A stretch of DNA of 45,548 bases. Origin: Actinomycetota bacterium. Its GTDB lineage: Bacteria > Actinomycetota > Actinomycetes > Nanopelagicales > Nanopelagicaceae. The position numbers and the translations under genes were made by a program. The notes under the pieces are model-generated. The model was given only the letters and a program-made list of their open reading frames with translations. It was not told the origin of the DNA and made no database searches. Positions 1 to 2,566 of this stretch are shown here, one piece after another. The stretch spans positions 1 to 45,548 of the forward strand of contig RGHD01000006.1 of the NCBI GenBank assembly GCA_010024385.1. The letters run 5' to 3'. Position 1 is the stretch's first letter, and every line of letters begins with the position of its first letter.

Positions 1-28
1 AAGAAGACTCCTCTTTTATAATTCGATA

Positions 29-250
29 ATGCAAAGTGGAAAAAATTTAGAAATCCAATTTCTAGCTTATGGATGGGGCCTAGGCCTTACTCTGAAGTTA
101 AATGGCTTCCAAGTCTTTGGGATCAGTGTCCTGCTTTATGCCGCGCAAGTTATTTTGAGCGGACTGTGGCTAAGTAAGTTCAATTATGGACCATTTGAGT
201 GGGTCTGGCGATGCGTCACGTATTGGAAAATTCTTTCAATTGAGGCTTAA
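29..250 (+). CDS. Short DUF418-like (YeiB C-terminal) membrane fragment gene
   Basis: A 73-residue protein that resembles only the C-terminal end of DUF418/YeiB membrane proteins. It has two hydrophobic segments, a YGWGLGL stretch, and the family-typical tail LSKFNYGPFEWVWRCVTY. DUF418 proteins usually have several more helices upstream, so this is a truncated domain. The frame is open to the left edge, so a longer protein cannot be excluded. However, a perfect TATAAT at 17-22 lies exactly 6 nt before the ATG, which suggests a leaderless gene that really starts here. It is the first of the small genes separated by 20-bp repeats. The function is unknown; it may be a captured or decayed fragment. 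Confidence 0.55.
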   Translation: MQSGKNLEIQFLAYGWGLGLTLKLNGFQVFGISVLLYAAQVILSGLWLSKFNYGPFEWVWRCVTYWKILSIEA

Positions 251-263
251 CTTAATCTTTCCG

Positions 264-283
264 GCTTATAGGGCGACTCTTCT
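264..283 (+). repeat. 20-bp cassette-junction repeat, copy A
   Basis: The core GCTTATAGGGCGACTCTTCT is identical to the copies at 727 and 1269. It starts 13 nt after the stop codon of the upstream small gene and ends just before the TAGAAT promoter box (286-291) of the next gene. Confidence 0.85.
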
Positions 284-297
284 CTTAGAATTACGAA

Positions 298-711
298 ATG
301 GAATCGTTTTCAAGTAAAGGCATAAAAAATGGCCTTGGCATAAGAGGAATAATTGGCGCAATAGGCCTAGGTTTTATCTGCCTCTATCAGCCACTCTTTG
401 TAACTAGTTCGAGCTTACTGTGGGCAAAAATATTGCTTGTTCTTGCTGCAGCCGTATATGTCGCCTTCTCCATAATTTGGGATAGAAAATTCCTACTGCT
501 TACTAATGTTCAATTAATAGCTGCTGTAATGCTTCTCGGCATTTCTGTTGCAACCGGAGAATTCCTATTTATTGCTTTGGGGTTATTTCTTCACGCAATT
601 TGGGATTTATGGCATCTAGCAACTCAAAAAAGATATGTGCCATGGTGGTACGCAGGGGCATGTGTTTATGTTGATCTGGCAGCTGTGGCATTAATTTTGG
701 TGAATCAATGA
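298..711 (+). CDS. Small four-helix membrane protein, unknown function
   Basis: A 137-residue protein with four to five predicted hydrophobic helices. Its most distinctive part is near residues 98-127: an HAIWDLWH motif, then WWYAGACVYVD. Small membrane proteins with an H-x-x-W-D-x-x-H motif followed by WY..C...D exist (DUF6010-like), but the assignment is tentative. The start is supported by TAGAAT at 286-291, 6 nt before the ATG, so the mRNA is probably leaderless. Base use is AT-rich compared with genes right of 2 kb, which suggests transfer. It lies between repeat copies A and B as a one-gene unit. Confidence 0.7.
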   Translation: MESFSSKGIKNGLGIRGIIGAIGLGFICLYQPLFVTSSSLLWAKILLVLAAAVYVAFSIIWDRKFLLLTNVQLIAAVMLLGISVATGEFLFIALGLFLHAIWDLWHLATQKRYVPWWYAGACVYVDLAAVALILVNQ

Positions 712-726
712 CCACCAAAGTATCGG

Positions 727-750
727 GCTTATAGGGCGACTCTTCTTTAT
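727..750 (+). repeat. 20-bp cassette-junction repeat, copy B
   Basis: Identical 20-nt core at 727-746, plus a TTAT extension shared with copy C. It begins 15 nt after the stop codon of the membrane-protein gene. Confidence 0.85.
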
Positions 751-785
751 TTGAACTATTTAAACGCAGAGAATATAATTTTGGA

Positions 786-1253
786 ATGAATTTTCCCCAC
801 CTTTATTCTGTTGAACGTCAATTTAATGTTTCTGTCGACAAACTTTGGCACGCGTGGACAGATGCTTCTGCTCTTGAAGTGTGGCACCACCCGGTTGGAA
901 TGAGCTGTGTACCTGGATCGACTCATTCTGAATTGGAAATTGACGGATTGTGGGCTTACGCAGTACAAGTTCCCGGTCGAGAATCTATTTCATATTTCTT
1001 CGGTAAATATACTTTAATTCAAGAGAATCTTCGGTTCGAGCACTCAATGCACTACACGGAATCTAAGAATGAATTTGAAGATAAAGATTTCAATACCCCG
1101 GCACATCAAATATCAGTTGAATTTGAATCTCGGGGAGATAAATCGTGGTCGAAATTTAGCCAATATGGTGAAGCGCCAGAAGGGCAAGTAGCTCTGATGG
1201 CTCAAGGAATTGAAAGTTACTTTGATTCTTTAGACGCGTTCCTAAAATCTTAG
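786..1253 (+). CDS. SRPBCC / AHSA1-like domain protein
   Basis: A 155-residue single-domain protein of the START-like SRPBCC fold, close to the AHSA1 (activator of Hsp90 ATPase-like) group. It opens with a strand and the helix typical of the family (VERQFNVSVDKLWHAWTD, residues 9-26) and ends in a long C-terminal helix. Such proteins bind hydrophobic ligands in a central cavity; the ligand here is unknown. TATAAT at 774-779 is exactly 6 nt before the ATG, so the gene is probably leaderless. It is flanked by repeat copies B and C and has no functional link to its neighbours. Confidence 0.8.
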   Translation: MNFPHLYSVERQFNVSVDKLWHAWTDASALEVWHHPVGMSCVPGSTHSELEIDGLWAYAVQVPGRESISYFFGKYTLIQENLRFEHSMHYTESKNEFEDKDFNTPAHQISVEFESRGDKSWSKFSQYGEAPEGQVALMAQGIESYFDSLDAFLKS

Positions 1254-1268
1254 ACAAATTTTCTTCCA

Positions 1269-1292
1269 GCTTATAGGGCGACTCTTCTTTAT
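1269..1292 (+). repeat. 20-bp cassette-junction repeat, copy C
   Basis: Identical core at 1269-1288, plus TTAT. It begins 15 nt after the stop codon of the SRPBCC gene. The gene to its right is on the opposite strand, so the repeat is not simply the promoter of a downstream gene. Confidence 0.85.
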
Positions 1293-1303
1293 CGTGCCTT
1301 GAT

Positions 1304-1711
1304 TCAGAACCCTTGTTCTATCGCTAGCCAGGAATCTGGATGAGCTAACTCAGAAAAACCTAAATCTTTGTAGACACCATGAGCATCACGTGTTTTTAAA
1401 AGTAGCCTAAAAGCAGGAAGATGGTTGAAATAATCAATCGCTGCCTTTGTGATTGCATGGCCAACACCTTTTCCTCTTGAATTAGGTTCAACATAAACAT
1501 CACACAACCAACCAAATGTGCATGTGTCAGTAACTAATCGTCCAACGCCAATGAAACTATTGTCATTATCAATTATTGAAATAGGAATGGAATTTGCAAA
1601 TGATTGCTTTACTACCTCCGGATCACGGCCAAAAGCCCAATATGAGTCCTTTGTCAGCCATTCAATCACCTTGGGTAGGTTCAAATCGGTTGGGTCATAG
1701 CTAATTTTCAT
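1304..1711 (-). CDS. GNAT family N-acetyltransferase
   Basis: A 135-residue single-domain GNAT enzyme that would transfer an acetyl group from acetyl-CoA to an unknown amine. The acetyl-CoA pyrophosphate-binding motif RGKGVG is near residues 80-85, after the V.P..RG pattern of motif A. The C-terminal half has the usual Y..LGF signature (YKDLGF). The start is supported by TATTAT on the minus strand (plus-strand 1719-1724), 7 nt before the ATG. It is the last unit of the repeat-punctuated stretch and the only one in reverse orientation. Its 3' end lies 15 nt from repeat copy C. Confidence 0.85.
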   Translation of the reverse strand: MKISYDPTDLNLPKVIEWLTKDSYWAFGRDPEVVKQSFANSIPISIIDNDNSFIGVGRLVTDTCTFGWLCDVYVEPNSRGKGVGHAITKAAIDYFNHLPAFRLLLKTRDAHGVYKDLGFSELAHPDSWLAIEQGF

Positions 1712-1728
1712 GCATCAGATAATACCTC

Positions 1729-1971
1729 TTAAATTTTGAGTAAATGTTGACAACTCACTTCAACCACAAATCTGGCATTAAAGGATGTTTTACTTTTGGA
1801 CTTTAAATTAGGGATACTAAAATTGTAGTGCGATGGACTTATTACAGAAGATATAGCTCTACCTAAATCTAAGTGATCAGATTGAACCCAGTTAGGTATT
1901 TCTTGGCTACCAGCACCTTTTTCTAGTACACATTTGCAGCATTCAAGTCCAACTTTATCACCTATTTCACC
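1729..1971 (-). pseudogene. Possible gene remnant with no start codon
   Basis: The only structured content I see in the roughly 345-nt gap 1712-2056 is an 81-codon open frame on the minus strand. It reads protein-like, with a cysteine cluster (LECCKCV) and a DHLDLGRAI stretch. It begins right after an in-frame TAG and contains no early ATG, GTG or TTG, so it cannot be translated normally. It is AT-rich like the accessory genes to its left. It may be a decayed gene or a chance open frame. I do not recognise a family. Confidence 0.25.
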
Positions 1972-2056
1972 CTAGGCACGCTACAGAAATTTAATTCATG
2001 GCTGACTAACTGGCTGTGCCCGCAACTTGGCGTCATTTTCAATTTATAATGCATTT

Positions 2057-2566
2057 ATGACTATTGGACTTAATCGCCTCCTAGCTCACATGGCATGGGC
2101 AAATCAGAAAACTATTGCCCATCTGCAAACACTTCCCGAAGCCTGCCTTAGCGCATATGCAACTAATCCCGAGTGGCATGCTGCAGAGATTATTTATCAC
2201 ATTGTTGATTCAGCTGATCACTACGCTTTTCGCATCAGTGGCATCCCAGCACTTACTAAACCAGGGGAGCCCTGCATTGATGATGTGAAAGTGATTGCAG
2301 ACCTAACACGCCTTAAAGAGCAAGCAGCGATTGTGGACAAAGCCTTACTTGAGTGCGTGAAGTTAGAAGATGTTCAGATTGAGTTTAAGAACTATGAAGA
2401 CAAAATGGTTAAAAGGTGGCGCTCAACCATCCTCTCACAAGCCATCCATCACGCCACCGAGCATCGAGCTCAGTTGGCATCTGCCCTAGAGGCAAAAGGC
2501 TTTAAGCCAATGGATCTAGATGAGTTGGATCTGTGGGCCTTTGAGATTGAAACAGAGTCTAAGTAA
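2057..2566 (+). CDS. DinB-like four-helix-bundle protein
   Basis: A 169-residue protein of the DinB/YfiT superfamily, metal-binding four-helix bundles that often act as thiol-dependent S-transferases. Candidate metal-binding histidines appear in the usual places: EWHAAEIIYHIVDSADHY near residues 39-56, and HHATEHRAQL near the C-terminus. A TTG at 2027 in the same frame is less likely as the start, because TATAAT at 2045-2050 sits exactly 6 nt before the ATG at 2057, the leaderless spacing seen throughout the window. The substrate is unknown. A second, divergent DinB-like protein lies at 29246. Confidence 0.85.
   Translation: MTIGLNRLLAHMAWANQKTIAHLQTLPEACLSAYATNPEWHAAEIIYHIVDSADHYAFRISGIPALTKPGEPCIDDVKVIADLTRLKEQAAIVDKALLECVKLEDVQIEFKNYEDKMVKRWRSTILSQAIHHATEHRAQLASALEAKGFKPMDLDELDLWAFEIETESK

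Follow-up and report, generated by a model that had tools for sequence, protein, structure and literature searches.

The window, i.e., the whole stretch of 45,548 bp analyzed here, starts with a row of small genes separated by a short direct repeat (Table 1). The initial annotation of this region had reported an exact 20-mer at positions 264, 727, and 1269, with copies spaced 463 and 542 bp apart, each beginning 13–15 nt after a stop codon, and with one small gene per interval. A scan of the window confirmed these claims: the 20-mer is present at the three positions without mismatch and always on the plus strand (0.01 expected in shuffled sequences), and the gaps between stop codon and 20-mer are 13, 15, and 15 nt. 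No further copies were detected in the window at up to three mismatches. The length of the repeat had to be corrected, as the conserved core comprises 24–26 bp and begins at TCCG; copies 2 and 3 carry one mismatch each within the first core bases. The full core sequence is TCCGGCTTATAGGGCGACTCTTCT, followed by a T-rich stretch. The description of the array as AT-rich also held, with a GC content of 40.3% compared to 45.3% for the rest of the window (sd 2.2%, 750-bp windows).

The gene identities proposed earlier (membrane protein, SRPBCC protein, and GNAT protein) were borne out by Pfam, except that the membrane protein gave no match. RNA genes were not detected in the window by Rfam and ARAGORN scans. 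The GNAT gene is located after the last repeat copy. Neither on its far side nor before the DinB gene was a core found in the window at ≤ 9 mismatches of 24, and because no recognizable right core is present there, the right boundary of this unit is only inferred. At the left, the array is cut because the window begins with the first base of contig C46, which belongs to a genome of 1.33 Mb in 99 contigs. The protein piece encoded at this end matches PF04235 (E 2e-18, profile positions 107–163), and the DNA of this partial cassette is 89% identical to a segment in G018 (L196) that is located directly before a core and followed by other cargo. Cassette 1 was also found in L113 with a period of 461 bp (76% DNA and 79% protein identity), and homologs of the cassette 2 protein are present at other rnpB loci (49–55% identity). 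The right flank shows 91% identity over 510 bp to the relative G015, whose genome is complete, and later flank genes are common to G015 and G067. As a side observation, positions 1–15 of the window (AAGAAGACTCCTCT) resemble the last nine bases of the core, apart from one mismatch, and a T-rich left end comes next; it is conceivable that another core sits right at the contig cut.

Table 1. Features of the array at the left end of the window.
Feature	Position	Strand	Description
Partial cassette, cut by contig start	1–259	+	DUF418 membrane protein, C-terminal piece, 29–250
Core copy 1 (rnpB 3′ end)	260–283	+	Perfect, 24/24
Cassette 1	284–722	+	Membrane protein ORF 298–711, no Pfam match
Core copy 2	723–746	+	One mismatch (TCGG)
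Cassette 2	747–1264	+	AHSA1/SRPBCC ORF 786–1253, PF08327
Core copy 3	1265–1288	+	One mismatch (TCCA)
Probable cassette 3	1289–2043	-	GNAT ORF 1304–1711, minus strand; right boundary inferred
Right flank common with G015, starting with DinB gene	2044–2566	+	Outside the array as seen here

The repeat corresponds to the 3′ end of rnpB

The repeat, which we take to be the 3′ strand of the P1 helix of RNase P RNA, was tested for this identity on relatives. In these, complete genomes included, the 20-mer is the exact end of rnpB as placed by the Rfam model, which shows the rnpB identity of the core. In this point the result differs from the initial annotation, as the repeat is the 3′ end of rnpB and not an anonymous recombination site.

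In the genome from which the window originates, rnpB lies at the end of contig C1, where the sequence stops four bases short of the core. Over 323 bp, this gene shows no difference from rnpB of the relative G067, in which the core comes immediately afterwards. Upstream of rnpB, the C1 flank matches G015 at about 91–93%, as does the right flank of the window (DinB, from position 2044 on), and in G015 the two matching segments enclose the rnpB array. The window array is therefore most likely the continuation of C1 at this locus, although the two contigs are not joined in the assembly. The window is likely to hold the distal portion of a tandem row of integrated gene cassettes at the rnpB locus of a Nanopelagicales (acI) actinobacterium, and an rnpB array accounts for the breaking of this assembly at rnpB.

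In two genomes, the true rnpB has a partial or diverged second copy beside it, namely at L016/L032 (G037:C24:49741–49953) and L031 (G053:C6:12166–12338), with RF00010 matches of 67 bits (G037) and 43 bits (G053). These second copies suggest that rnpB pieces larger than the core might sometimes be captured or duplicated.

Cassette arrays and their turnover at the core

Within the order (Nanopelagicales/acI), the core was found in 93 of 112 genomes that are ≥ 90% complete, and 68 of the 112, as counted from the tabulated results, contain two or more copies. In the genus, 73 of 135 genomes contain the core. With the pattern reversed as a control, neither the scan of the order nor 1.8 Mb of retrieved loci gave a match. 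Further core copies in the same orientation were present in 40 of the 73 loci anchored at a complete rnpB; these sets run downstream in direct orientation, and rnpB stays intact upstream. A plain mismatch scan, for which no control matches were obtained at ≤ 5 mismatches, yielded 168 distinct intervals with a median period of 683 bp (range 95–6752 bp), 109 of them of ≤ 1 kb. A single ORF of ≥ 60 aa is present in 89 of these intervals and none in 24, and 87 of 289 ORFs lie on the strand opposite to the core. For 246 copies outside rnpB, base conservation leaps from 0.31 to 0.94 at the first core base, i.e., the left edge is sharp. These results establish the array structure, and the cassette-array reading proposed earlier for the window was supported by the many arrays in relatives, whose intervals hold one variable gene or a few.

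The cargo includes acetyltransferases, SRPBCC and ASCH proteins, DUF305 proteins, epimerases, and transporters, and few PADLOC matches indicative of defence cargo were obtained among 150 proteins. A search of a viral contig collection with the core 20-mer gave no matches. We also observed that the cassette ends, viewed over 100 bp on either side, form a few families common to unrelated cargo (L037, L053, L095, L139, L180, and others); examples are left ends that contain short hairpins and right ends that contain CACGCATAACAATGTCGTC.

The repeats might in principle be static, scattered among core genes of conserved order without any gene turnover. In favor of this explanation, the order of a DUF418 gene followed by the membrane protein gene is common to the window and L113. 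Against it, seventeen interval families recur, several of them beside different neighbors, and in the alignments homology reaches the core and then stops. A cassette with a lone tRNA-Gly gene (anticodon ACC), mostly of about 380 bp (379–476 bp) and with 15 distinct members, was found next to nine left and eight right neighbor families, and a cassette of 4.1 kb recurs in two genomes with differing left and right neighbors. Furthermore, G015 contains between rnpB and the DinB gene the rnpB end, two further cores, and other cargo, so that the content of this segment differs completely from that of the window despite a flank identity of about 91%. The DinB homology in G015 starts 9 bp after a perfect core, and that in the window at 2044. 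Static repeats are thus all but excluded and cassette turnover at the core is shown; the breakpoints at the repeat that had been predicted for related genomes were indeed found.

Two tRNA-Gly cassettes with the unusual anticodon are arranged in tandem in L033 (628–702 and 1013–1087, minus strand), and this cassette is also present in L045, L060, L067, L083, L115, L122, L152, L153, L169, and L180. The 4.1-kb cassette (L180:1483–5587 and L139/L270) contains multiple genes, including DUF305 and heavy-metal-like genes, and possesses both of the arm repeats described below.

Integrase elements and arm repeats

A recombinase near the array, which the initial annotation had named as possible support, was not found for the window. 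Its genome encodes only two tyrosine recombinases, which are XerC/D-like in size and score and located far from the array. Among 18 genomes of the genus, almost all of them array-bearing, most likewise contain just two tyrosine recombinases, XerC and XerD by score and size. The likely enzyme is a tyrosine integrase encoded by a few elements in other genomes. In G050, an element of 4.8 kb located between rnpB and a core encodes a tyrosine integrase of 374 aa together with HTH genes. The clade of this integrase (≥ 42% identity) was found in six of 296 family genomes, and six of its seven copies are followed by a same-strand core 35–355 bp after their end, whereas none of 28 other integrases (23–29% identity) had a core in the available flanks. 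This demonstrates the association of the integrase clade with the core. The seventh copy (G191) has rnpB on its left and no recognizable core on its right.

The integrase contains SAM-like and catalytic domains, and a relative gave a weak arm-binding match. A candidate integrase gene is located at L114:300–1424 on the minus strand. Only three of 150 scanned array proteins matched Phage_integrase. The elements of G094 and G158, which belong to different genera, share a backbone composed of a DUF4379 protein, an HTH protein, conserved proteins, and the integrase; one of the backbone proteins weakly matched a replication-protein family (E 0.007, below its cut-off). A large zinc-finger protein was noticed on integrase elements (L268:5342–7306 and L114:3518–4846, both on the plus strand). 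In G094, DUF4379 stretches occur eight times in this protein; it further shows weak matches to CapR and GIY-YIG as well as matches to PHROG endonuclease families, and might perhaps be a nuclease. A serine recombinase was rejected as the mover, since the only one in the 18 genomes (G067) is located about 0.5 Mb from the array.

The motif GTGGGCA occurs 58 times downstream of cores, almost always at +75 to +150 (3.3 expected, three on the reverse strand), and 17 times upstream, mostly at -50 to -25 (2.3 expected, two on the reverse strand). These counts were derived from a slightly incomplete core list and not recounted as k-mers; the arm classes determined later agree with them. Among 157 cassettes that were long enough, 14 have both arms, 52 one arm, and 91 none, compared to 14 with one arm and none with both in the reverse-strand control. 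Repeats of this kind are also present at the left ends of the integrase elements of G050, G094, G158, and G191. The arm repeats as such are shown, and strand-specific TGGGCA repeats flanking the core match the attP layout recognized by an arm-binding integrase. By inference, some cassettes may be non-autonomous derivatives of integrase elements and the arm-less cassettes mostly fixed remnants; the origin of the arm-less class is unexplained. In the window, no arms were recognized by eye and the genes reach within about 15 bp of the core; its cassettes are probably relics, either fixed or decaying.

Growth of the arrays at the rnpB end was tested and is not supported. In a plain mismatch scan, the last core copy was worse in seven, better in five, and tied in nine arrays (p = 0.77), and the rank correlation was not significant (p = 0.20). 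A left arm was present in 15 of 40 cases after rnpB and in 15 of 73 elsewhere (p = 0.07). An apparent decay of the core with distance from rnpB was discarded as an artefact of a best-match regex that skipped imperfect copies.

According to one alternative, the host recombinases XerC and XerD, which every genome possesses, move the cassettes, with the core being a dif-like site and the integrase elements mere passengers. It is favored by the fact that these two are the sole tyrosine recombinases in most array-bearing complete genomes, that of the window included. On the other hand, the contrast between the integrase clade and the other integrases in proximity to cores argues against it, and arm repeats at fixed distances, which a dif site does not include, suit an arm-binding integrase. 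Without an alignment, the core also bears no obvious resemblance to the two inverted half-sites of dif. We consider this explanation very unlikely. Another alternative is that DNA is exchanged between cores by general homologous recombination or natural transformation, that a site-specific enzyme is no longer required, and that a past integrase only seeded the repeats. This is supported by the lack of an integrase in most cassettes, by the 91 of 157 cassettes without arms, and by the ability of direct repeats to recombine. However, a core of 24–26 bp offers little length for RecA-type exchange, and the junctions between unrelated cargo coincide exactly with the core on either side. We consider this alternative improbable; it may still account for deletions and part of the shuffling.

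Proposed mechanism and comparison with known systems

The explanation we favor as likely is tandem accretion of mostly non-autonomous cassettes at rnpB, mobilized in trans by a phage-type tyrosine integrase, with the mobility itself being inferred. In this model, the integrase would recombine a circular element with the last 24–26 bases of rnpB. The element's own copy of these bases would restore the RNA gene, one core copy would be left per insertion, and repeated insertion would stack elements head to tail. A few elements would carry integrase and excisionase-like HTH genes and most only cargo; the latter would be mobilized in trans when an integrase element is present in the cell, and those with arm repeats on both sides of the core would be the likely mobile ones. 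The circular intermediate, the action in trans, and the route between cells are inferences. Several observations speak against this model. For the 91 testable cassettes without an arm on either side, origin or movement is open, the G191 integrase element lacks a recognizable right core, circular forms, excision events, and fresh insertions were not seen, and the viral collection yielded no core. A bolder reading, for which arguments for and against appear balanced to us, is that of a capture system distinct from integrons, in which sub-kb, single-gene, integrase-less units with phage-type attP arms around an rnpB core would be shuffled in trans by a rare integrase across this order of abundant freshwater bacteria, with rnpB as the shared docking site for new genes.

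Systems of this kind are already known as ssrA islands and as additive islands at tRNA ends; the present arrays are a variant in that they are located at rnpB, are linked to a tyrosine integrase with candidate arm sites that is itself rare, and are built at the scale of single genes. The ssrA islands of Dehalococcoides are arranged in tandem downstream of a single-copy structural RNA gene, with 20-bp direct repeats of its 3′ end, and 16 of them have and 15 lack an integration module (PMC3146451). The rnpB arrays resemble them in having tandem units bounded by repeats of an RNA gene 3′ end, some without integration module. The criterion for RNA-gene islands, a core formed by the last bases of the gene and an intact gene upstream of the inserts, is met by rnpB, whereas that of an ssrA target with a DsiB-type serine recombinase is not. 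Dehalococcoides uses the serine recombinases DsiB/DsiA and has larger islands, compared to a tyrosine integrase and a median of 683 bp here, and integrase elements are a small minority at rnpB, whereas about half of the Dehalococcoides islands have an integration module. "Ca. Methylopumilus" has an additive flexible genomic island at tRNA-Lys with 20-bp tRNA-Lys repeats (PMC10872708). It differs by its tRNA gene target, and the relevant passages tie no integrase or arm sites to the repeats (PMC10872708). In "Ca. Actinomarinales", small tRNA-bounded cassettes end with a direct repeat of part of the RNA gene (PMC7771536). These, too, are streamlined aquatic actinobacteria with small units and RNA-gene repeat ends, but several tRNAs within an envelope island are used there and a single locus, rnpB, in a different order here.

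Tycheposons are elements of 4–200 kb with a recombinase that target tRNA genes (described in PMC10872708). Cargo on tyrosine-recombinase elements at RNA genes of aquatic bacteria is a shared feature; however, with an rnpB target, mostly sub-kb pieces, and most cassettes lacking a recombinase, the arrays do not meet the tycheposon criterion. A tyrosine integrase near the att site is present on the integrase elements and absent from the great majority of cassettes. Like integron cassettes, the units are promiscuous single genes that are arranged in arrays and traded at a common site. The earlier statement that this is not a classical integron held in the tests made: there is no integron integrase or attI at the array head, which is rnpB, the site is the end of an RNA gene, and many cassettes have arm repeats. 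An attC-like fold is also missing, and the shared single-strand structure suggested earlier was not confirmed, as the folding energies around the three window copies were like those of shuffled sequences. In the open-access literature searched, rnpB arrays of this order were not described; as this search omitted a study central to these genomes (doi 10.1038/ismej.2017.156), the novelty is provisional.

The acI actinobacteria, with their streamlined genomes, are among the commonest freshwater bacteria, and little is known of how they acquire genes. Gene gain in acI becomes testable with a fixed docking site for which the core is named and both arm sites and an integrase are available as candidates. 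In the model favored here, phage-type integration would be used at the scale of single genes.
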